Below are positions 7,860 to 61,795 of a DNA stretch of 64,000 nt, piece by piece. A program made the position numbers and the translations under genes. The notes below the pieces were generated by a model, which was given only the letters and a program-made list of their open reading frames with translations, searched no databases and was not told the origin of the DNA. The number at the start of each line of letters is the position of its first letter. Within the stretch, counting starts at the first letter, position 1. Origin of the DNA: Cordylochernes scorpioides (taxonomy: Eukaryota; Arthropoda; Arachnida; Pseudoscorpiones; Chernetidae); assembly GCA_030710605.1 (NCBI GenBank), contig CP092879.1, positions 79,957,853-80,021,852 on the forward strand, written 5' to 3'.

Positions 7860-9893
7860 AATATGTCTTAAGAAAACAAATAATATGCAAAACTTTCTAA
7901 TGTATATATATATATGTACATAGAATCATAATAGTTTTAGCATCAGGCGACGTTATATTTTCTTGATATATTGTATATGTTTCTCCTGTAGAAGGGCGGA
8001 CAAGCTCGAAAGCTCGAGAAGACCAGAATAAAAGATACTCATCCCCATAGACGTTTTACTTTGATATCAGAAATCAATGATAATATTAAGGTTTTGCCAC
8101 AAACAATGTGAATCGTAAAAGACAGCGGCGAGAGATGCGGTATACACCGCCTCAACATAACTTTCATTGCCTGATAAAATGCCAGTGAAACGGAAAGCAT
8201 AAATTAAAATTCACGATTTATAATAGACTGTTAATCTCAGGATGCGTGGACTACTTCACCAATACTTAAAAATAGTATGGCTTTTCATTAGGTATATATT
8301 TCTAAAGTATAGGGGAAGAAACATATACTAAATTCGAGCCCCGCGGCGGGCGACATTGTTGAGTTCCCGGTTTTGGATAGTTGAAAAGGGAGGGTACACG
8401 ATGTGACTTATTAAAAGTTTCCTTACTTAAGTATATATATATATAGCAATTTAGGCCAACAACCCCATGTATATAACCCGCAGCAAGACCTTAATGTTGT
8501 ATAATAGCAGCACAGCTGTCAGTGATGCACTATCGGCATATGTCTTTACATCATCACATGTAATGCAATTTGTGCAAACAGGATAAATAAAATAAATAAA
8601 AAAGAAAAGGGGGGAAAAACTCCGTAATTGATTAAGAGTTGAGCTAAAGCAAGGATCGAGCATATAATATTGTCAGAACAATGGTCTAAAGATGGAAACA
8701 GCCGCGACACTATTATACAATTTCATCAGACAACCCATGAAATCGTTATTAAATTGGGCAATCTATAAAACACTGAAACACAGACACTCGCGGCAATGTA
8801 TGTGGCCGGTAATTTATGGGAGACTTGATTATTAGTAACATTCCCTTCAAATAGGTAAGAAACATACAACATTTCATTTAAACAGTGGGAATAACACCAT
8901 AAGGCAAATTATGTATGAAATAGGTAACAGAGGAAACAAGAAAATTTCTCTAGATATTTATTTAAATATCTTAAAATTTGGGAACATGTCTATACTGACG
9001 AGATATGCTATTTACATAGTAAAATTTAGATAGAGGTGACCTGAAGTTACTTTATAGCCCTTTAGGGCCCATGCGAAATCTAGGTTGTCTACTACACAAA
9101 AGGGGGGTTGGGGGAAGGCGCTAAGTCATAATGACAAATGGCTTACCTTTTCTCGAAAGTGCCGGCAAAGGTTTGGTCTCCTGTCTGCAGACTGTCCTTT
9201 CACTGAGCGACTCCGATCGAATCTCCTGCCTTTTCGCAAAGAACCTTCTTTTATTCATCTCTCTCTCCATTTTCATTCGCCGAAAGAAACACCAATCAAA
9301 ATGGCCAACGGCTCCAGTATCAATTTCATAGACGCCCCAGGCCTCATCAAAATAGAACATATAGTATTACCAAAACAAAAAAAAATCTAAAGAGAGCAAC
9401 AGCTACGGCGATAGTGTAAAATTTCAGACGCCAGCCCCCCCCTTCCACATGGATTGAAAAACCATCCTCCCTTTTTCTCGGGACGATATATATATATCGC
9501 CCCCCTCCGTCTTAGCTATAAATCGACACAGGCCCCTTTTCACTTGAACTGTAATATAACGCTTTCCTTTCTCGGGAAGGATATTTTATAAGGTTCAGTC
9601 CTTTAGAGATCTTCCTTCTCCATTTTTTTTTTTCTGGTCACCTTTACCTAAATTTTTGGTGAGGGAAATATATGTACATATGAAACAACAGTTTCCAGCT
9701 CGGATGTCTCTGGATGTCTTCTTCTTTACCAGGCATCAGCTTTCGGCATGGAAGTCTGGTGTCACCAAGTGTCTAAGTTTCTGGGCAAAAAAAATGGTCT
9801 GTAAGTCTATGTGGGAGGGAAGCCATGTATCCATTTGATTTGATTATACATACGCCTTCTGTTGGGGTATGGTTACAAAAACGTGCCCCAACA
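7860..9893 (-). repeat. Repeat U, copy 2 (full length, inverted)
   Basis: This is the inverted, near full-length version of the repeat at 49612-51362. The minus strand runs from the TGTTGGGG end at 9893 to the CTTAAGACAT-like end near 7860. It includes the ~500 bp (7860-8355) absent from copy 1: GC-rich words such as GCCGCGGGGC, and an AT dinucleotide run. No protein of known family was recognised. It could be an LTR or a non-autonomous element; a gag-like fragment follows it at 9959. Confidence 0.7.
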
Positions 9894-12045: not shown

Positions 12046-12467
12046 GTAGGGGATCAAACTGACTGACTACAGTACATCATGTTTAAAGCCTTGTTCCACA
12101 TAGCCATCTACATACCCTAACGGTTCAAAAATATTTTCCACATATTCTGTACACAATTATTATATTTAAATATTATATTTCACATATACAGGGTGGCCTA
12201 TAAGTCCCGAAAGAGTGAATTTGTTGTATAGCTATTCTGGTTCTCAATTTATTTTTGGTATTTGTTCACCACAATAGGTTTTTTTCATTCGCAAAATCTA
12301 GCTTTAAGGGTATCTATAAAATATTTTTAATTTCTAAAATTTATATATTTTTAACACACTAATGTTAAAAAAATATACATAATCAGTATAAATCTATATG
12401 ACTAGAAATGAGAGAGTGTTAAAGTTACCTACCAGAATCATTATTTATTCCAATCAATTAATATCTA

Positions 12468-13085
12468 ATGGATAAAAACCATAAATACTCTTATATTCCT
12501 TCTGAACAGGGAACCCAACCGAATTTCAGAACCAATTGCTACATAGCTTATTCACCTACAAACGAAAAAATGGCGCTAGAACTAAAGAAATTTGGCATAA
12601 GGTTTATCTTCCACAGCTCTAGAACAATAGAAAATATTTTCAAAAATCCCTTCACTAGACCATCTATAAATCAGAATCCCCAACAGAAGAAAAATGCCAT
12701 TTATTCTATATCATGTCTAGATTGTCAATCCATTTATGTTGGCGAAAGCAGCAGGAAAATAGAAACCAGAATAAAAGTACACATATACAATATAATGAGA
12801 GAGATCTCCAATATACCACAAATACCACTACTGTAATATTATCCAAGTCAGAATTCCTTGAATCCCTCATATATAAAAATAAGAACAGTATCAACAGAAG
12901 ACATCCCAGAACAATTAGCATATTCCAAATGAAGATTTAATAACCATCACTTAGTAAATCTAGTTCTCCCAGTGTTTACCCTCAGTTGTAACATCGCCAG
13001 TTGAAGAGAGAGAGGCTCGAAAGCTGGCCGTGTTTTTGAAATAAAGAAACTGATTGCGCAAGGTTTTTAGATATTTTTATAAAGC
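12468..13085 (+). pseudogene. Penelope-like element relic, GIY-YIG endonuclease end
   Basis: The frame at 12468-12836 contains YSISCLDCQSIYVGESSRK followed by ETRIKVH. This matches the GIY-YIG endonuclease at the C-terminus of Penelope-like retroelements (I-x-C-x2-C ... YVGET/S ... R...H). Reading continues in a different frame at about 12800-12940, so at least one frameshift is present. The reverse transcriptase is absent upstream. The tail (12960-13085) has GGCTCGAAAGCTGGCC and AATAAAG, a layout typical of Penelope 3' ends. The element is dead. Confidence 0.75.
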
Positions 13086-15670: not shown

Positions 15671-18600
15671 TCAGTTTACAACGGGGTTCAGTGGCTCTGC
15701 CTTTATCGACCCAAAGTCCAACCTCGAGTCCAGCTCATCGTCCACCTCTCCAATGACAGCTCTGCAACACCAACAAATAGCTTCAACCTACAAGTTGACT
15801 AAATACACAAAATTATATCTTTACATTCTTTATTAAAATTTGTGAAAATAATTCAGTGGAGTTTTTGAAAAAATGGAAGTAAAAATTAAAAACTAGCAGC
15901 TTTATCACAATTTTGGCAGCTGTCCCCAAAGAATGATTGCTTAAACAGAACTGAGAGTGGATTGACATTACCCCAGCCTGGAGAATTGATCCCCCCAAAA
16001 AAAAACTTCACAGAAAAAAGTTACTTCCATCAAGTACAGAATGTAACAGAGTATTAAGTCAGGACCTCACTGATGGTAAGAGACTTCTTGAAAGTGTGGT
16101 GTTTGATTCATTCTTCAAACTGTTTATAAATAAACAAAACAGCAAGCACAATCTCCTAGAAGCATCCTTGGCATCGGACCAATAGTCTCGGAGCTTTGCT
16201 TCAGACACCACAGAACTTGGGACAACCACGGATGCTGTGATACAACATGTGTTCCCAACAATGGGTGGGTGAAGATAAATGTTTCACAACTGTGTGACAG
16301 GACTGGAGTTGGTAGAGACTCACACATTGTCCCCCCGGATGATGTAGAGCCCCAGCACCACCTGCTCCACCCCCTGGCTCGACCTGTAGACCCGCTCATG
16401 GCTCTCATCCAGGATCACATTGATGGTCTGGTCGAACCCCTTCAGTGTGCCCTGGGTGCACCACTCTGTCAGTGACCTCACATCGGCCAACAAGGGACAG
16501 TGACAGCCTGGGTAGCTTCCAAAGAGACCAAAGCATCAAGGAGGGCAGAAGGTATCTCATGGTTGAAAACAAGCCACTTAAAATATCGCCTACTATCCAT
16601 TTAAAAATTTATATTTGTAAAAATATCATTAGTGACTATAAATACAAGTAATTTTATACAAGAGGAAAGTACATAGGACTGAATAGAAACAAGCCCATTA
16701 AAAGGTTGAATCGTCACTAGTACATCCCTCAATCTATCAAAGTGAACAAAATGTAGATTTTTAATAAACAAATATTTTTATCAAATTTTGAAACTATTTT
16801 AAAGGCGCAAGATTCTTTTTTATATTAAACAATTTCTACTGCCCTTACTGCAATGGAAAAATTAATGAGAGGGCCTGGCTCATCAGTGGTGAACCCTCTC
16901 AGCGGTTTCGCCAGTTTAATCTACCATACCGCTGTTATATTTCATTTTTGGAACTTCCTTTTATAGTGATACAATATAACAGCGGTATGGTAGATTAAAA
17001 CTGGCGAAACCGCTGAGAGGGTTCACCACTGATGAGCCAGGCCCTCTCATTAATTTTTCCATTGCAGTAAGGGCAGTAGAAATTGTTTAATATAAAAAAG
17101 AATCTTACGCCTTTAAAATAGTTTCAAAATTTGATAACAGATGGCGTGCATCAAACAAATATTTTATTAAACATTATGAAATTTGTATTGAAAGGTTTTA
17201 GAGAGAATAAACATTTATAATAAATCTTAAGGATTTAAAAAAAAAAGAAAAACTAATATAAATTAATTCAAATATAAACCAAAACGAGGCAGCAGATATT
17301 GGGGTCCATAAGATCACCTCTATACAACTCTCGCCAAGCACCTCCATGTTCATTAACAGGCTTCGGAGACCCACTCCTCTAAAACAAGAGATTTTAGTTT
17401 GAGAAGGATGTTCTGTGGGGCTCCAATGCATCTCTCTAAGGCATCCCAGATTGATTCTGTTGGCTGCAAGTCAGGCTGGCTAGTGATTCACTACTTTTGT
17501 CTGAAAATGGTAGCAACAGTGTTACTGATACATACACAGCAGAACCTCTCTAGTTGCAGAGCTCCTCCTATCAGAGAGCTGCTAAATACTAAAAGTGGTC
17601 ATTTTTATAATGAAAACTATTCCTTGTAGAAAGGTAGCAACACCTGGAGGTTCTACGGTAACTTATTTGGACTGGTTACTTTGTAAGGAATGATTAAATA
17701 GAATGAATTGTTGAAACAGATTTATTCACCAGATAATTTTGCATATGTTTGTCAATTTCGGTCTTTTAGCTTTAATGAATAATGTCAAATTATAGTCATA
17801 GAAATTAAAGAAGATAACTTGGTTGGGATTTGATAACCAGTTGAATTGAAGAGGTTAAGTTGTAGAGAGTTTTATTATATAAAAAAGGCATTTTTTTTAA
17901 ACATGGAAACTTTCTCCTTGGATTATAAATACTATAGAATAAAGCGTTAGGAGAAAATAATAATAATAAAAAAAAAAAAAAAAACTAATAAAAATTAATT
18001 CAAATATAAACCAAAACGAGGCAGCAGATATTGGGGTCCATAAGATCACCTCTATACAACTCTCGCCAAGCACCTCCATGTTGATTAACAGGCTTCGGAG
18101 ACCCACTCCTCTAAAACAAGAGATTTTAGTTTGAGAAGAATGTTCTGTGGGGCTCCAATGCATCTCTCTAAGGCATATAGCATAAATTATTTTCTCCTAA
18201 CGCTTTATTCTATAGTATAAAAAAGGCATTTTTTCACTCAATTTTGGACCCCAGGATCAAGAGCTGTTTCCAATTTGACCAAAGTATTCTTTAAGCAAAC
18301 CCTATGGAAGAAATTTACATTTTACCACACACCTGGTCTTATCACATGTCTGACCTTTCTTAAGCACCGTGATTTTCTCAGATTGATCACAAACCTGTTG
18401 TCTCCTGCAATGAGAACATCACTGATGCCTCAATGTGACGGAAGGAAATGTGGAACACACTAGCAAGACAGATCACATGTTTGATCAAGGGAAACACATC
18501 AATGTGAGTGGGTCTGTGTCAACCAACAGGGTTCAAAATCTCCGTTGAGGAGTCCAGCTCCAGCAGCAAGGGATGTGAAGTTAAGTAAAAGACATCAACC

Positions 18601-19182: not shown

Positions 19183-19609
19183 AGTGAAATTATATGCTAG
19201 AATTCCAGCCAAAGCTGATCAGCAGCAAAGATGGCTGCCTCCGTGTGACTTCAGCAGAAGCAAGGTTGGCCTGCCTCAGATTCTCGGTATCACATTGACC
19301 CATCAAGAACAAATAAATGCACAAAGAGATGCAGCATTGTCTAACAGCTAATCTATATTTGATACTTCATAGTCTGTCCAATAACTGCCTCCGTTGATTT
19401 CAGCATCACATTATCTACAGGGCTGCTGATTGGTCAATTGCCAAGATGTTAATTTCATACAAATCTGATCTTATTTACATAAATGGGATGTGACATTTCA
19501 TGTTTCTCCTCATACAGCTGCCATTGTTCTGATGCCCTGTATTTGTATTTACATTTTTGCTTGAATGTTGTAGGTGACATATGTAAAAGTGGGTGCACTC
19601 AACTTACTT

Positions 19610-20299
19610 ACAGGGAAACACAAGGTAATAAGGCCAAATCCAAATTGTGCCTTATCATTGGTTACAGGGAGACACAAGGTAATAAGGCCAAATCCAAATT
19701 GTGCCTTATCATTGGTTACAGGGAAACACAAGGTAATAAGGCCAAATCCAAATTGTGCCTTATCATTGGTTACAGGGAGACACAAGGTAATAAGGCCAAA
19801 TCCAAATTGTGCCTTATCATTGGTTACAGGGAGACACAAGGTAATAAGGCCAAATCCAAATTGTGCCTTATCATTGGTTACAGGGAGACACAAGGTAATA
19901 AGGCCAAATCCAAATTGTGCCTTATCATTGGTTACAGGGAGACACAAGGTAATAAGGCCAAATCCAAATTGTGCCTTATCATTGGTTACAGGGAAACACA
20001 AGGTAATAAGGCCAAATCCAAATTGTGCCTTATCATTGGTTACAGGGAGACACAAGGTAATAAGGCCAAATCCAAATTGTGCCTTATCATTGGTTACAGG
20101 GAGACACAAGGTAATAAGGCCAAATCCAAATTGTGCCTTATCATTGGTTACAGGGAGACACAAGGTAATAAGGCCAAATCCAAATTGTGCCTTATCATTG
20201 GTTACAGGGAGACACAAGGTAATAAGGCCAAATCCAAATTGTTCCTTATCATTGGTTACAGGGAGACACAAGGTAATAAGGCCAAATCCAAATTGTGCC
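19610..20299. repeat. 54-bp minisatellite, about 13 units
   Basis: Units of 54 bp, nearly identical, each ACACAAGGTAATAAGGCC + AAATCCAAATTGTGCC + TTATCATTGGTTACAGGGA/G. The unit length is divisible by three, so open frames of ~275 codons exist in several frames on both strands; these are artefacts. The unit fuses the two end sequences of the fold-back retroelement family seen at 18945, 25148 and 37354. Confidence 0.9.
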
Positions 20300-24833: not shown

Positions 24834-27800
24834 ATGCTAGGTGCCATCAGAAACTCGCTGGCCAGGACTCCAGCCCTCCTCAAGGCCACAGCTGACCCAA
24901 TGGTTCAGCAGATGGAGAGGCTCCACATCAGCTCTGTCCTAGAACGGCGCTACCGTCAGATCCGTGGGGGAGGCCGCCCGCTCCCAGAACATGTACCTGT
25001 GCCAGAGCCCGGGAAATATGCCTGGAAGGTGGTCAAGCCAGAGGACGGCAAGTACACCACCGAGCCCCTGAAGGTGATCAAGCTCGGGGGCCGCAACGAA
25101 GAGGGTAGGTTGTGGGAAATATTCTAATAATTATTTTCAAAATAATTATAAGACAATTTGGATTATAGATTATAAACACAAGGTAATAAGACCAAATCCA
25201 GATAAATAAATAGTATGTGACGTTTCGGTAACAGCATTGTTACCATCTTCAGACAAAAGTATTGAATGAGAAATTTTACCACAGCATGTTATCTTGTTTA
25301 CACATTTTGATAACAGTAACTATTTAAAACATGCTGTGGTAAAATTTCTCATTCAGTATTTTTGTCTGAAGATGGTAACAATGCTGTTACAGAAATGTCA
25401 CACACTATTTATTTATTTTGATTTGGTCTTATTACCTTGTGTTTACTTTGAAAATAATTTTAAAATTTGATTTTTTTTGTATAGGGCCAGTTTAGCAAAG
25501 TAAAACAGAACAATTATGATTTTTTAAACTCATTAATTATTTGGTCTTGTTTTACCTTATAATCATTAGTATAAATTAAGTACTTTATTTAGTTAATTCA
25601 ACAATAAAAAGTGTTAGAAAGAAAATGAATATAGGAAGTATAAATAGAATATTTTAAATTTTTTAATAACAATAAAGGGCTATAACGGTGTCATATACAC
25701 AGAACATGGGGGGAAGATAGAGTAGAACAAGAGCTAAAGACAGAACATGGGGGGAAGATAGAGTAGAACAAGAGCTAAAGACAGAACATGGGGGGAAGAT
25801 AGAGTAGAACAAGAGCTAAAGACAGAACCATGATAATTTTTATTCAAGTGAATTAAGTTTATAAGATTTAAGTCGTTTTGTATTTTTACTTTTTTAATAT
25901 AAGTTCTAGAATATAATTCCTAGTGTGAAAATTGGAGATAACTGCAATGTTTTTTTTTTTGTATAATTTTAAATGGAAACATAATGGTTCAACCAGGGTG
26001 GAAAGATATTGGCCAGGTCTTGTCAAAAGTTAACCTGGCGGTTTTTCAACCCTCAGCTTTACAACCATACCAATCTCTTAGACCTTGTACAGAGTCAAAA
26101 GGAAAAACATATTTTAGATATATACTCATTTATAATACAATTTCCCATCCCTGGACACTTTTATTTTTCCGTTTATCATTACTCTTAGCAATTCATCCTT
26201 CGTCCCTAAGGTTAGAAATAATCGTTATTTCTCCTTAAAATAAATTTTGATTTTCGATTAAAAGAAACACATGCGGGATCAAATGTCGTTATACTCATGT
26301 GAGAGGTCAGGATATGTCCTTCTGTTTTTGAAATCAGCACCTGAACTTTTTCTATTTATTTTTTTTTTCACATGAACAGCGATTTTTCAGAAAATTTGAC
26401 CTCAAATATTCATTTCTCAGGAAGCCTACATTTGTGGTTGTAGAGCTACAGCCTGACGAGGGCCAACAGCCCAAAATGTGTTAATGGTTGGATTTTTATG
26501 TTTTATCAAGAAAATGGGTTGGCCAAATATCATGGAACAATTTTAATTAACCATTAGTTGATTTTGTTCCACTAGATGGCACTCTGCCATCTAAAATTAA
26601 CATGTGAGCGACCAGGCTGTCAGCCTAGTGCAGGCTGTATACAGGCAACCCGGGATATAGCGAACCTTCCTTTATAACAAACCAAAGGTAACATTCCATT
26701 GAAAATACCATTATTACAACAAACTTTGTGATTTTTTAAATGATGAACCTAATTTTAAATCCCAAAATGATAAATCCTATTCAAAATACTAGGCTTACAA
26801 CAAACTTAAAATTCTAATTAATAAATTAAAAACAAAAAAATTTAGTGGCATTGTTTGTTTATATAAATTTTTACACATACTTTTTATAAAATAGAATATT
26901 CCTGTCTACAACCTGTCTATAGCGCCCCCTCTAAATAGCGCCTTCCTCTCTATAGCACCCGATTTTAAATACATAGTATGATGCGATTTACATTAAAAGT
27001 GACCAGTCTATAGCACCTTATTTTGGTGAGTCCCAAGAGCTATAGAGAGGTTTAACTGTATAATTATTAAAACTTTGCCTAGGATTTGTCTTGATTTTTA
27101 AATTAGACATAGTGGTACATGTATGTTAATGATAATAATAAACTATCATCTAATGATTTATTTATTATTCAGTATTAATGTAAGGAAATTGGTCAATTTT
27201 TAGGAAATTAAAACAAAGTGGCCACTATTAAGATATAAATATTTCCTGTATGTATGTATTTAATTATACAATCTAAAAATTTAGAAAAGTGAAAATAGCC
27301 AAACTGTGAACCAAAAGTTCCATTGGGGCTCACTATCGAGTGGGTTTACTGTATATATAAGACACCTCTCTACAAAGAACAGATAAAAGTCGGTGGATGA
27401 GAGGGTAACACGCTCGATTTCCGACAGTCATGAACCGGGATTGAATCCCGCGTTAAAAATTGTTTAATATGTGAATAACCTTCATATATTATTCATTGTT
27501 CAATTATCATGAACTAGGTTGCTCTTGTTGAGCGGTACCTATTAATGTGATTTGAACCAGACAAAGAACAGTTTTCATCACCAAAATAATATTTTTTACT
27601 ATTTAACAGCTCTTCAATAAGAGGACACTGACTCTAGGTGTTTGTGAGATAGGTAAGATTTTGGCTGAGATCAAAGTGTAGTTTATATCTTTGTGGCCCA
27701 AAAGTCTTTCTTACATTTGTTTCCCACAGGTGGTGATAAAGCCATAACACAGTTCAAACATCAACCTGTAGACCATGGTTTGGCCTTAATCATTTCCAGG

Positions 27801-29376
27801 GATGTCCATAACATTCTATGAGAGCCATGGTGTGGCTCAATCAACATTTTGTACCGTGGTGATGTGTATTGTTTTATTGTGAGATTTTGGTACTTGAATA
27901 CTTTTGTTTCAGGTGTTCATAAAGATGTTCCATAAAAATGGGAATCAGACAAATGTTTTCCAGAGACCATTGTTCTTAGTTATGTCATATCTTCTTTCTT
28001 ATCTCCACTCAATCACATATCAGGGTATCAAGCTTGTAGAGCTTGTTGATGGTGTCTGCTGGGGATGAGTAGAGCTCATCAATGGATGAGCCAATACAGT
28101 CAATAATGTGGGTTGCAGGATGAGAATTGCAAGTTACAACATTGAAATGATACGGTACAGTTTGGATTATTGATTGTAAACACCAGGTATCTATCTATTT
28201 GGATTTGGTTTTATTACCTTGTATACATGGAAAATTTGCCGGGAGGAAATTAATCCATAGAAGCAATGGGCGCCGCTCCCGTCAAAATAAACATCAAAAC
28301 CTGACGCCATCTATTGACCGTCGCCGCAACTAGCGGCCTCGGGACGGTGACAAAGCCAAAACACCTGCTTTGGAAAACTGAGAAGCGTCCACCTAGAGAC
28401 CATGGTTTCGGGCTAATGGCCCTCGTCAGTCTACAGCGGACTGTGGCTTTGTCACCGACCCGAGGCCGCTAGTTGCAGCGACGGTCAATAGATGGCGTCA
28501 GGTTTTGACGTTTATTTTGACGGGAGAGGAGCCCATTGCTTCTATGGATTATTACCTTGTGTTTACAATTTATAATCCAAATTGTGCCTTATCATTTCAA
28601 TGTTGTGACTTTTGAAAACTTGAAGCTAAAGTGTGAGATTGCAGGCAGGGTTGCTGTGAGGACAATTGGGGGCGGATCCAAGAAGAAATTCCGCTGGGTG
28701 GACAACAAGCGCCACGTGCCGGATGGGCAAGAAATCTTGCAAGAGAGAGTGGAGCAGGTGCGATATTCCCCCTGCCACGTTGGGCGCATTGCGCTCGTGG
28801 CATCTGGGCTGAACAAACGCTGGATCACGGCCTCCCAAGAAATAAAGGTCGGTGACCTCGTCACTACCCACAAGGCCATTCCTCGTATCCCAGGTGGGTG
28901 ATCCCTATGTTCCCAGCTGCCCCCAGGGCCAACTGTGCCATGTTCCAGTGGATCCCAAGATCGGAGATGCCCATCCTGTAGGAGCCTTGCCTCTCGGCAC
29001 ACTGGTTCACAATATTGAAATCATACCTGGGAAGGGTGGACAGTATGTCCATTCTGCCGGCTCCTCCGCCCAGATTCTGCGCAAGCTGGATGATGGCATG
29101 GTGACACTGAAGCTGCCCTCCAAGCAGGAGATCTGTGTCAAGGAGAATTGCATGGCCGTAGTAGGAACAGTCTTAGACTCTGGCAGCAAGTTCCCACTAC
29201 GCTCCACTGCTCGCCGCTCATGGGTCGGCCTCAGACCCAGGTCAGGCTGGTGGCACCGTAAAGATGGCTACTGCGGCTTCAAGAACCGCCCGACCCCACC
29301 CATGAAGGTTTATGACAAGCCACTCCCACCAAAATCCAGGCAGTACAAGATCTCAATGGATAGTTGCTTCCATTAA
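24834..29376 (+). CDS. MRPL2: MRPL2, mitochondrial large-subunit ribosomal protein uL2m
   Basis: Three exons: 24834-25104, 28645-28893 and 28949-29376 (948 nt, 315 codons plus stop). Introns are 25105-28644 and 28894-28948 (55 nt), both GT-AG, both phase 1; joined codons give Gly and Val. The product has an Arg-rich start (MLGAIRNSLARTPALLKA), fitting a mitochondrial targeting peptide, then GRVAVRTIGGGSKKKFR, KRWITASQEIKVGD, IGDAHPVGALPLGTLVHNIE, and the C-terminal GLRPRSGWWHRKDGYCGFKN with NRPTPPMK: the uL2 RNA-binding and C-terminal domains around the peptidyl transferase centre. Length is close to human MRPL2. The ATG at 24834 was chosen because upstream in-frame reading gives only a GTG. 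The coding sequence appears intact. Confidence 0.95.
25148..25450. mobile_element. Hammerhead-bearing fold-back retroelement, copy 3
   Basis: Lies in MRPL2 intron 1. Two ~120-bp inverted arms share the AATTTGGATTATAGATTATA end, a GGTAACAATGCTGTTAC stem and a further TGAATGAGAAATTTTACC inner stem. Core words are CTGAAGA/GAAATGTC on the plus strand and CTGAAGA/GAAACGTC on the minus strand, both with one deviation from consensus. The 9-bp target duplication AAAATAATT is at 25139-25147 and 25451-25459. Confidence 0.75.
25701..25826. repeat. 41-bp tandem repeat, 3 units
   Basis: Three identical units starting ACAGAACATGGGGGGAAGAT lie in MRPL2 intron 1. Identity between units suggests recent expansion. 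Confidence 0.85.
26432..26490 (+). ncRNA. Degenerate hammerhead ribozyme motif
   Basis: CTGACGA at 26453-26459, a GGGC/GCCC stem (26460-26463 with 26469-26472) and AAAA where GAAA is required. The catalytic G12 position is therefore lost, and the motif should be inactive. It has the same stem II as the intact motif at 28387-28441, so it looks like an old relative. Confidence 0.5.
26642..27058. mobile_element. Pogo/Tigger-type MITE
   Basis: Left end CAGGCAACCCGGGATATAG and right end CTATAGAGAGGTTTAACTG are imperfect inverted repeats with TA on both sides (26640-26641, 27059-27060). Internally it repeats CTATAGCGCC/CTATAGCACC. Non-coding; within MRPL2 intron 1. Confidence 0.65.
27390..27455 (+). 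repeat. tRNA-like SINE head
   Basis: A TCGGTGGATGAGAGGGTAAC region resembles a pol III A box. GGATTGAATCC at 27438-27448 is a B box with one mismatch. The acceptor stem does not close, so this is a tRNA-derived SINE fragment rather than a tRNA gene. It may be related to the head of the SINE at 22135-22431, which begins with the same GTCGGTGGA. Confidence 0.45.
28155..28222. mobile_element. Hammerhead-family retroelement remnant, copy 4 (split, left part)
   Basis: CAGTTTGGATTATTGATTGT and TTGGTTTTATTACCTTGT are family end sequences; the matching other end is at 28549-28583. The intervening 28223-28548 is a later insertion, so one fold-back element is nested in another. The ribozyme core of this copy is gone. 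Confidence 0.6.
28223..28548. mobile_element. Fold-back element carrying a hammerhead ribozyme
   Basis: Nested in an older repeat inside MRPL2 intron 1. Inverted arms of 108 bp lie at 28251-28358 and 28444-28551 (CCATAGAAGCAATGGGC and complement), with a loop of 85 nt holding the ribozyme motif. A 12-bp duplication, TTATTACCTTGT, is at 28211-28222 and 28549-28560. The left end has about 28 unpaired bases (28223-28250). No protein is encoded, so mobilisation would need enzymes in trans. Confidence 0.8.
28387..28441 (-). ncRNA. Type I hammerhead ribozyme, predicted intact
   Basis: Minus strand, 5' to 3': outer stem I GTCC (28441-28438), inner stem I TAGA, CTGACGA (28429-28423), stem II GGGC-CATTA-GCCC, GAAA, stem III ACC-AT-GGT, the cleavable TC, then inner stem I TCTA and outer GGAC (28390-28387). 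All core positions of the hammerhead consensus are met, including the G10.1-C11.1 and A15.1-U16.1 pairs. Predicted cleavage is between 28398 and 28397. It sits in the loop of the fold-back element and is antisense to MRPL2, so only a minus-strand transcript would cleave. Confidence 0.8.
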
Positions 29377-33508: not shown

Positions 33509-33661
33509 AATCATAAACACAATGTAATAAGACCAAATAAATAAATAGCATGTGATGTTTCGGTAACCACGCTATTACTGAAACGTCACACACTATTTAT
33601 TTATTTGGTTTTGGTCTTATTACCTTATGTTTATAATCTATAACCCAAATTGTGTCTTATC
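33509..33661. mobile_element. Hammerhead-family fold-back retroelement, copy 5
   Basis: Short inverted pair: AATCATAAACACAATGTAAT on the left, TTACCTTATGTTTATAATCT on the right, with GAAACGTCACACAC retained and CTGATGA deleted from the centre. A 7-bp duplication, TTAATTG, is at 33502-33508 and 33662-33668. Confidence 0.65.
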
Positions 33662-34533: not shown

Positions 34534-35692
34534 GGCTATATATAGCTCACTACAATATTAGCTAGAGCAGTATGGTGTCAGGGAGGTGGGGCTATATATA
34601 GCTCACTACAATATTAGCTAGAGCAGTATGGTGTCAGGGAGGTGGGGCTATATATAGCTCACTACAATATTAGCTAGAGCAGTATGGTGTCAGGGAGGTG
34701 GGGCTATATATAGCTCACTACAATATTAGCTAGAGCAGTATGGTGTCAGGGAGGTGGGGCTATATATAGCTCACTACAATATTAGCTAGAGCAGTATGGT
34801 GTCAGGGAGGTGGGGCTATATATAGCTCACTACAATATTAGCTAGAGCAGTATGGTGTCAGGGAGGTGGGGCTATATATAGCTCACTACAATATTAGCTA
34901 GAGCAGTATGGTGTCAGGGAGGTGGGGCTATATATAGCTCACTACAATATTAGCTAGAGCAGTATGGTGTCAGGGAGGTGGGGCTATATATAGCTCACTA
35001 CAATATTAGCTAGAGCAGTATGGTGTCAGGGAGGTGGGGCTATATATAGCTCACTACAATATTAGCTAGAGCAGTATGGTGTCAGGGAGGTGGGGCTATA
35101 TATAGCTCACTACAATATTAGCTAGAGCAGTATGGTGTCAGGGAGGTGGGGCTATATATAGCTCACTACAATATTAGCTAGAGCAGTATGGTGTCAGGGA
35201 GGTGGGGCTATATATAACTCACTACAATATTAGCTAGAGCAGTATGGTGTCAGGGAGGTGGGGCTATATATAGCTCACTACAATATTAGCTAGAGCAGTA
35301 TGGTGTCAGGGAGGTGGGGCTATATATAGCTCACTACAATATTAGCTAGAGCAGTATGGTGTCAGGGAGGTGGGGCTATATATAGCTCACTACAATATTA
35401 GCTAGAGCAGTATGGTGTCAGGGAGGTGGGGCTATATATAGCTCACTACAATATTAGCTAGAGCAGTATGGTGTCAGGGAGGTGGGGCTATATATAGCTC
35501 ACTACAATATGAGCAGTATGGTGTCAGGGAGGTGGGGCTATATATAGCTCACTACAATATGAGCAGTATGGTGTCAGGGAGGTGGGGCTATATATAGCTC
35601 ACTACAATATTAGCCAGAGCAGTATGGTGTCAGGGAGGTGGGGCTATATATAGCTCACTACAATATTAGCCAGAGCAGTATGGTGTCAGGGG
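34534..35692. repeat. 56-bp minisatellite, about 20 units
   Basis: Units of GGGGCTATATATAGCTCACT + ACAATATTAGCTAGAGCAGT + ATGGTGTCAGGGAGGT. Most are identical. Two shorter units lacking TAGCTA occur near 35490-35570, and the last two carry TAGCCA. AGCT-centred palindromes are present in every unit. Near identity implies recent expansion or homogenisation. Confidence 0.95.
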
Positions 35693-35745
35693 CTCACCAC
35701 TGATGAGCCAAGCCTTTCTAATAATTTCTCCATCCAAAAGATGAC
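35690..35745 (+). repeat. Fragment of the hammerhead-like fold-back family
   Basis: GGCTCACCACTGATGAGCCA and following bases match the arm of the 16779-17152 element. Only the CTGATGA half remains. It abuts the last unit of the 56-bp minisatellite. Confidence 0.55.
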
Positions 35746-59455: not shown

Positions 59456-59819
59456 TTATCACCATCACCACCTTAACTTTCTCTATTGGTTGTAATGAAT
59501 CAAAATGCTTTATTTTAATGGTTTTTATGGAGAGACCTCTTTTGATCCATTATTGCATATATATAAATTCTATTCTTACCCACTACTTTGAGAATGAGCA
59601 TTTTTAAAAATCTGTAAACATTCAATTATATCAAACCTGGCTTCTCATTTCTAAAGAGGAATTACCATTTTGGGCGAGGCCAGTCTATTTCATTCTTTTC
59701 TCTTTCTCTCTCTTTCCTTGCAATCAGGATCTCCCATACAATTCCCTTTTACCAGCATTGCTAGCCTCCTCTATCCTATTTAATTAAGATTTTAAAAAAA
59801 GTAAGTTGATGAAAAATAT

Positions 59820-59960
59820 TGGGAGGGCTTGGCTCATCAGTGGTGAACCCTCACAGAGAACCCAATCAGAGTCGTCCAATATAATATTAGAGCTCTAAGA
59901 GAAGCAGTCTGGTATATTAAATTGGCGAAACCGCTGGGAGGATTCACCACTGGAGAAAAC
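59820..59960. mobile_element. Degenerate member of the hammerhead-like fold-back family
   Basis: Left: GGGCTTGGCTCATCAGTGGT (complement of CTGATGAGCCAAGCCC). Right: AATTGGCGAAACCGCTGGGA followed by TTCACCACTGGAGA. Here the stem partners are TTGGC and GCCAA instead of CTGGC and GCCAG, so pairing is kept despite the base change. CTGATGA in the right arm is mutated to CTGGAGA. Confidence 0.6.
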
Positions 59961-60293: not shown

Positions 60294-60366
60294 GAGCCTA
60301 TAGCCTAGTGGTCATGGCATCTGCCCGGTAAGCGGAAGGTCGTGGGTTCGATTCCCATCCCTTGAC
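60294..60366 (+). repeat. tRNA-like sequence, probable SINE head
   Basis: A box TAGCCTAGTGG (60301-60311) and perfect B box GGTTCGATTCC (60345-60355). The anticodon-arm-like stem TCTGC/GCGGA has loop CCGGTAA, which lacks the universal U33. The acceptor stem does not pair. It is more likely a tRNA-derived repeat than a functional tRNA. Confidence 0.5.
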
Positions 60367-60389
60367 CTTGTATACATCTTGCTTCCTAG

Positions 60390-61795
60390 GGTTGCCTAGA
60401 GTGGCCGCTATAGACAGGGTGGTCTGTATAGACAGGTGGATGTATCACACAGCTGATAACAGGGTTGCCTAGAGTGGCCGCTATAGACAGGGTGGTCTGA
60501 ATAGACAGGTGGATGTATCACACAGCTGATAACAGGGTTGTCTAGAGTGGTCGCTATAGACAGGGTGGTCTGTATAGACAGGTGTATGTATCACACTGCT
60601 GATAACAGGGTTGCCTAAAGTGACCGCTATAGACAGGGTGGTCTGTATAGACAGGTGGATGTAGCACACTGATGATAACAGGGTTGCCTAAAGTGACCGC
60701 TATAGACAGGGTGGTCTGTTTAGACAGGTGGATGTATCACACAGCTGATAACAGGGTTGCCTAAAGTGACCGCTATAGACAGGGTGGTCTGTATAGACAG
60801 GTGGATGTAGCACACTGCTGATAACAGGGGTGTCTAGAGTGACAATGACAATTGAAAAATATTTATTGTCATCTAGACAATTTTACAATTCAGCGAGAGA
60901 GAACAAGAGAAAAATATACAGGTGAAAAATAATACAAAATTTTTACAAAGTGATGATGGAGGATGAAGGAAGGCATCCCCTGCGCACGAGGGTCCTCGTC
61001 CAGGCGATGAGCGGGTCCTCCACTCCACCGAGCCCAACCTGGACAAAGTGGCGATAGACGCGCAGCTTTGCCGACGCCAGGATGGTCAGGGCGTCGTCCT
61101 CAAAGCCGGACCCGCCGAAGATCCAGGCCTGCAGGTCAGGGGGCCGCCCGATGATGTTGAAGGCCTCTCTGATGAGGGGCCTGATGGAGGAGCAGCTCCA
61201 GTAGCGGTGGCCGAGGGAGCGGTCGACGGAAGGGGTGTCTAGAGTGGCCGCTATAGACAGGGTGGTCCGTATAGACAGATGGATGTATCACACAGCTGAT
61301 AACAGGGTTGTCTAGAGTGGTCGCTATAGACAGGGTGGTCTGTATAGACAGGTGTATGTATCACACTGCTGATAACAGGGTTGCCTAGAGTGGCCGCTAT
61401 AGACAGGGTGGTCTGTGTAGACAGGTGGATGTATCACACAGCTGATAACAGGGTTGCCTAGAGTGGCCGCTATAGACAGGGTGGTCTGTATAGACAGGTG
61501 GATGTAACACACTGCTGATAACAGGTTTGTCTAGAGTGGTCGCTATAGACAGGATGGTCTGTATAGACAGGTGTATAACAGGGTTGCCTAAGGTGACCGC
61601 TATAGACAGGGTGGTCTGTATAGACAGGTGGATGTAGCACACTGCTGATAACAGGGGTGTCTAGAGTGGCCGCTATAGACAGGGTGGTCTGTATAGACAG
61701 GTGGATGTAACACACTGCTGATAACAGGGTTGTCTAGAATGGCCGCTATAGACAGGTGTATGTATCACACAGCTGATAACAGGGTTGTCAAGAGG
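60390..61795. repeat. 73-bp minisatellite, about 13 units, interrupted by a LINE
   Basis: Units of GGTTGCCTAGAGTGGCCGCT + ATAGACAGGGTGGTCTGTAT + AGACAGGTGGATGTATCACA + CAGCTGATAACAG. Units vary at several positions. The array is split at 60842-61231 by a LINE insertion. Minus-strand frames starting 73 bp apart are by-products of the array. Confidence 0.9.
60842..61231 (-). mobile_element. 5'-truncated LINE insertion with 15-bp target duplication
   Basis: GGGGTGTCTAGAGTG occurs at 60827-60841 and 61232-61246. Between them the minus strand encodes the end of a LINE protein (SLGHRYWSCSSIRPLIREAF, then LIAWTRTLVRRGCL) to a TAA, then a 3' UTR with AATAAA and a terminal doublet of ATTGTC. GC content is far above the surroundings. 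Hexamer 3' tails and truncation at the 5' end are typical of CR1/Jockey-group LINEs; the clade is not certain. Confidence 0.85.

Follow-up and report, generated by a model that had tools for sequence, protein, structure and literature searches.

What is the mobile unit behind the fold-back insertion at 28223-28548? Within the 64,000-nucleotide stretch analysed (hereafter, the window), two near-perfect inverted arms enclose a type I hammerhead ribozyme, and a preliminary description took the whole hairpin for the element, with the ribozyme as a feature of its loop. We addressed this from the borders of the insertion, its relatives across the genome, and the insertion habits of Penelope-like elements (PLEs). 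The published work is cited for the excerpts used.

A discrete insertion with unequal ends

The insertion is 326 bp long, lies in a dispersed host repeat, and is bordered by a 12-bp target-site duplication (Table 1). When its flanks are joined, the resulting sequence matches paralogues in the window that lack any interruption, at 37418-37350 (91% over 69 nt) and also at 19012-18933, 33594-33661, and 25212-25144, so the borders are sure and the insertion is discrete. The earlier view of a small retroelement that encodes no protein holds, and the target duplication is genuine. The inverted arms were likewise as first described, at 108 nt each (28251-28358 and 28444-28551, 95% complementary) with 85 nt between them. 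Three bp of the arms fall in the target duplication, leaving 105 bp with 5 differences inside the insertion. The longest stop-free run is 72 aa, no reading frame for RT plus GIY-YIG was found in the insertion (the 319-nt unit described below is too small to hold one), and the GC content is 52.1%. A match to the ribosomal protein L2 N-terminal domain, which we read as mitochondrial L2, starts ~90 bp downstream on the plus strand, so the hammerhead lies on the strand opposite L2, and in this lone copy it probably has no role. For the next L2 stretch, the highest-ranking hit that carries an organism name, behind four others, came from the bivalve Solemya velum (52% over 61% of the query). Elsewhere in the window, a 54-bp tandem array (19608-20299, 12.8 copies, three frames open) has sequence in common with the host repeat that holds the insertion.

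Table 1 Features of the insertion and its surroundings, in window coordinates.
Feature	Position	Strand	Remarks
Whole insertion, very probably two 5'-truncated copies of the 319-bp hammerhead retrozyme unit, head to head	28223..28548	.	
Target-site duplication, left, TTATTACCTTGT	28211..28222	+	direct repeat; empty-site paralogues
Target-site duplication, right	28549..28560	+	direct repeat; empty-site paralogues
Longer copy, with hammerhead and tail	28223..28443	RNA sense -	5' end 28443, 3' end 28223; locus L022, unit -44 to 176
Shorter inverted copy, 105 nt, tailless	28444..28548	RNA sense +	ends at proximal start site
31-nt tail, one side only	28223..28253	-	distal 3' end 28223, proximal 28254
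"Loop": 5' part of longer copy, unmatched by shorter copy	28359..28443	-	
Hammerhead core, 32 nt: CTGACGA, stem II, GAAA, palindromic stem III ACCATGGT, C17	28398..28429	-	
Hammerhead with both stem I strands (TAGA/TCTA, distal GTCC/GGAC)	28387..28441	-	
Host repeat, left part	28131..28222	.	
Host repeat, right part	28549..28611	.	

A complete hammerhead core predicted to work best as a dimer

The core reads CTGACGA/GGGC-CATTA-GCCC/GAAA/ACC-AT-GGT/C on the minus strand and is complete, as the preliminary description held; a cut is predicted from the sequence between 28398 and 28397. It was the sole locus found in a structural scan of the window. A stricter structural scan of simulated sequence gave 1 match in 241 Mb on both strands (0.00027 per 64 kb), thus a chance origin of the core is unlikely. 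A loose sequence pattern without pairing gave 2 matches vs 2.48 expected, which is not significant. The support from Rfam, to which the preliminary description had looked for confirmation, was weak: neither the window nor the element gave a hammerhead at the gathering threshold, nor at E ≤ 10, and an 80-nt query aligned the core to Hammerhead_HH9 at 16.4 bits (cut-off 52, E = 0.054). Rfam listed no hammerhead on three loci of the family or on one PLE locus. Both helices of stem I were present as first described, but the internal loop between them did not hold up as a family trait; it is largely private to the window copy, which has GTCCGCTGTAGA vs GTCCGCCCTAGA in 9 of the 14 aligned copies.

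A single 66-nt hammerhead stretch was predicted to take another form (-22.2 kcal/mol, vs -16.0 kcal/mol for the best hammerhead form evaluated). For two such copies, the predicted co-fold has two active cores linked by ACCAUGGU (-49.0 vs 2 x -22.2 kcal/mol), with a shared stem III that is an 8-bp palindrome, and the common family form gave a similar prediction (-55.0 vs 2 x -23.9 kcal/mol). The predicted dimer fits the dimeric type I hammerheads already published (PMC7229834). In both the linear and the circular RNA of the whole insertion, the hammerhead region was predicted in another fold, so the window copy is predicted to be poorly active.

A second stretch of the window, at 26430-26500 on the plus strand, is hammerhead-like (CTGACGAGGGCC...AGCCC, then AAAA instead of GAAA) and perhaps decayed. 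A comparison with the 319-bp unit gave nothing at E 1e-3.

An abundant family with a 319-bp tandem unit

In a search of the genome (2.62 Gb, 24 contigs), the 32-nt core had 8,774 exact matches and the reversed control 0. At locus L028 the family forms direct tandem repeats, with 319 bp between cleavage sites. Among the 100 core matches listed, all on contig C1, the neighbours within 1 kb comprised nine minus/plus (head-to-head) pairs, three same-strand pairs spaced by exactly 319 bp each, and no plus/minus (tail-to-tail) pair. The window copy is not tandem, and L052 is a single direct unit whose inverted arm is absent from the 1.6 kb examined. Family matches were also present in 5 of 20 blind 10-kb stretches of C1 (L005, L011, L014, L015, and L018). 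The arms had also been considered as the pLTR of an autonomous PLE, and this was abandoned once the 319-bp tandem unit was found.

The unit has a GC content of 47.6%, i.e., below 50 yet not below 45. Its 319-nt circle is predicted to fold at -115.4 kcal/mol, and 0 of 100 simulated sequences folded as low. No match to the core or the arm was detected in the viral contigs searched. A 29-aa open frame spans tail and arm; no proteins sharing its start were found, and its lack of a stop is unremarkable (P = 0.30).

Of 26 family loci, 12 retain the whole core together with 4 bp or more of stem I; the remaining 14 are mutated, reduced to short fragments, or truncated within or ahead of the hammerhead. 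A lack of core bases in other copies, named in advance as evidence against the hammerhead, is thus not the rule. Divergence from the majority was 3.2% in the core (839 cells) vs 6.6% in the arm (4,651 cells), with values of 9.7%, 5.8%, and 6.0% for the spacer, stem I, and the tail and linker, based on 47 aligned pieces whose cells are not independent (L024, a duplicate, and L028, the reference source, were left out). A lower divergence of the core is as expected if it is under selection in the source copies. In the stems 98.1% of cells were paired with one two-sided change (L026), but 64 of 500 shuffles were equal, so this covariation is not decisive; the 14 rows (7 distinct) were pre-chosen for a complete hammerhead.

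Head-to-head pairs with a tail on one side

To resolve the anatomy of the insertions, the unit was aligned to 24 loci (8 from the first search, 11 with matches on both strands, 2 representing the tandem class, and 3 from blind stretches). As many as 21 of them came from the 40 best-scoring of 3,704 first-look candidates in the whole-genome DNA search, and L040-L050 were chosen for matches on both strands. We obtained 24 inverted arrangements in 23 loci, with L052 single. In 20 of the 24, one outer RNA 3' end lay at unit positions 167-181 and its counterpart at 131-155, the proximal end being 15-47 nt (median 35) nearer than the distal end. The one-tailed count becomes 19 of 23 if L023 and L024, which have common flanks and may derive from one event, are a single duplicated locus. 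In L042 and L047 the arrangement runs to the edge of the sequence examined, and two arrangements are irregular (L011, ends 177 and 52; the second in L014, at 8621-8867, ends 180 and 315). For the window copy the second end aligned to 155, past the border, and the real border is at about unit position 145. Among the 20 resolved pairs, none was two-tailed and none tailless. The longer copy extended beyond the cleavage site in all 20, indicating that the template RNA was uncut at that site. Target duplications of 9-15 nt were detected in 12 of 20 copies, whereas a shuffled-flank control gave at least 8 nt in 44 of 378; those of the other 8 were unclear, and several duplications are TA repeats.

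The inner junctions, compared by eye, were all different among 22 loci. Seven of them (L022, L026, L027, L029, L041, L042, and L050) had clustered junctions, in which a point at -44 to -51, immediately upstream of stem I, is joined to +31 to +62. The junctions are thus not random, and the cluster may mark a favoured stopping point. The variable inner junctions, combined with two discrete outer ends, indicate that each fold-back arose afresh from a head-to-head pair of 5'-truncated copies. The ribozyme sits in the loop because one of the two facing copies was truncated short of the hammerhead.

The window holds a second fold-back insertion (16779-17152), with arms of 163 nt at ~99% and a 13-nt border repeat, AAACAAATATTTT (region 16766-17165). 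It has ~16 extra nt on one side only, i.e., the same one-tailed anatomy in a different sequence, and parts of it are repeated at 59812-59952 and 35690-35733. Rfam found no hammerhead in it. A further repeat-rich region (60301-61787) consists of 73-bp tandem arrays directly downstream of a tRNA match (60301-60358), possibly a SINE with satellite expansion.

Penelope-like elements in the same genome

A typical Penelope insert in Adineta has an inverted pLTR and an 8-10 bp target duplication, is mostly head to head, and may carry a 31-bp tail on one inverted pLTR (PMC3846280). The PLE protein of Poseidon from Anolis cleaves and extends both strands of AT-rich targets, its synthesis begins at two adjacent internal sites, which explains the tail, and insertion is unaffected by hammerhead mutants (PMC11167929). 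PLEs have been proposed as the movers of animal retrozymes, on the grounds that the two co-exist and share type I hammerheads and a tandem arrangement (PMC7229834).

GIY-YIG domains are abundant in the genome studied here (17,015 candidates, with 146 matches among the 150 scored), and we chose four PLE pairs in which the GIY-YIG matches point apart. Inverted arms were present in all three with the centre examined (L051, L055, and L057), measuring 1.93 kb at 97.9% and 546 bp and 301 bp at 100%; such near-perfect head-to-head pairs suit the study of PLE second-strand priming. Two of the four pairs with outer ends examined share the one-tailed anatomy, with 10-nt target duplications and tails of 32 nt (with GATTCAGGTA) and 22 nt (with CAAATTATGC). 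Of the other two, one is ambiguous (the best direct repeat implies 58 nt) and one stretch is short of its ends. Hammerhead-like stretches were recognized by eye near the PLE 3' end in L056, L058, L059, and L061, and no hammerhead came up when 11 further PLE stretches were scanned strictly. In the window itself, a fragment with a GIY-YIG domain at 12462-12836 is likely the C-terminal end of a PLE.

A proposed mechanism and its alternatives

Taken together, the insertion is very probably a head-to-head, 5'-truncated pair of a ~319-nt animal non-LTR retrozyme with one type I hammerhead, integrated by a PLE-like enzyme. A GIY-YIG/RT protein would cut both strands of an AT-rich target, and the 3' end at each target side would prime reverse transcription of the retrozyme RNA. 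Synthesis would start at the distal site on one side, which yields the ~31-nt tail, and at the proximal site on the opposite side; both cDNAs would halt at variable upstream points and then be joined, giving the inverted repeat. The template would be an uncleaved or re-ligated (circular) RNA. We expect the hammerhead to be active in multimeric transcripts, and most so as a dimer via the palindromic stem III, releasing unit-length RNA.

We also considered a more general proposal, to which we give even chances: PLE enzymes move animal retrozymes in trans, and each two-sided insertion primes its strands at two different RNA starts, one each. Independent and equal starts predict that about half of the pairs are one-tailed, and the 20 of 24 seen in our loci would fit a built-in asymmetry, e.g., one start per subunit of a dimeric enzyme, to either side of a stem-loop TATGGA...TCCATCTA (read by eye). 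Unlike the two sides here, the PLE in vitro showed no start-site difference between strands (PMC11167929).

Four other readings were weighed, all of them improbable. The one that fares best among them, though unlikely, is that LINE machinery inserted the retrozyme units and twin priming made the inversion. LINEs also leave target duplications, but twin priming inverts the 5' part of a copy without duplicating its 3' end at both borders, and poly-A is absent from both ends of the insertion. LINEs or PLEs are named as possible helpers in PMC7229834, yet the one-tailed head-to-head form is the one described for Penelope (PMC3846280).

We consider it very unlikely that a fold-back hairpin element propagates as a unit with a functional ribozyme in its loop. 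The near-perfect arms, the folding of the insertion (z -25), and the many best-scoring genomic copies that match on both strands (40 scored of 3,704) would fit such an element, but it is contradicted by the variation of inner junctions and arm lengths between copies, and both the direct 319-bp tandem units and the single-sided tail speak against it. The hairpin as such is therefore not the element.

Slightly less probable again is an origin by reverse transcription of a rod-like circular RNA, with the 326-nt insertion as one monomer of a viroid-like retrozyme circle. Its size is inside the 170-400 nt range (PMC7229834), and a 326-nt circle is predicted to be 82% paired with the hammerhead intact inside; this is contradicted by the tandem unit, which is 319 nt long, includes a ~100-nt linker missing from the insertion, lacks the 105-bp arms, and is predicted to be 66% paired as a circle. 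A circular 319-nt RNA may be the template in the real mechanism. A DNA transposon (MITE) with terminal inverted repeats and a hammerhead by chance is scarcely credible: fold-backs are common in the window (11 inverted repeats of at least 50 nt), but the unequal ends, with 31 nt extra on one side, contradict it, and the 12-bp target duplication and the recurrence of the same core 8,774 times, also in tandem, oppose it.

Under the retrozyme-pair reading, an abundant retrozyme family bears the PLE signature in a genome whose own PLE pairs show it, which makes the helper proposal testable, and the one-tail pairing constrains how PLEs prime the second strand. Animal retrozymes and the proposed involvement of PLEs are already in print (PMC7229834; review PMC7761336). 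In the open-licence literature we found no report of head-to-head one-tailed retrozyme insertions, a weak negative, and the PLE insertion signature on a retrozyme appears to be new. What makes the case interesting is the one-tail rule and the link between retrozymes and PLEs, rather than a hairpin that contains a ribozyme. As a caution, a ribozyme found in the loop of a long hairpin does not by itself make that hairpin an element.

Comparison with known systems

The SMalpha and W-elements of Schistosoma are likewise SINE- or satellite-like repeats with type I hammerheads and a very short stem III, and head-to-head one-tailed insertion is not described in the excerpts of PMC8490949. Plant LTR retrozymes (PMC4918200; features via PMC7229834) are also protein-less retroelements with a hammerhead and a circular RNA, but theirs is type III, with LTRs and 4-bp duplications, in contrast to the type I hammerhead and 12-bp duplication here, where no LTRs are described.

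Closer are the metazoan non-LTR retrozymes (Cervera & de la Pena 2020, PMC7229834), which according to the excerpts have the same type I hammerhead, its stem III weak and palindromic, units of 170-400 nt in tandem (319 bp here), target duplications longer than 4 bp (12 bp here), a strongly self-paired circle (predicted here), and no protein, as here. Their GC content is given as below 50%, or below 45% in a figure legend, against 47.6% in the unit and 52.1% in the window copy, and they are expressed as linear and circular RNAs that self-cleave. The window family differs in being often head to head, with a one-sided tail and two discrete 3' ends, which those excerpts do not describe.

The PLEs differ in carrying an RT/GIY-YIG frame, absent from the retrozyme unit, and in a minimal hammerhead, whereas that of the unit is canonical; the unit shares no sequence similarity with the 23 PLE stretches sampled in this genome (E ≤ 1). 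As far as the excerpts go, Penelope of Adineta vaga (PMC3846280) and Poseidon of Anolis (PMC11167929) nonetheless have the same head-to-head copies with one ~31-nt tail, the same short target duplication in an AT-rich target, and the same position of the hammerhead, upstream of the start of reverse transcription.
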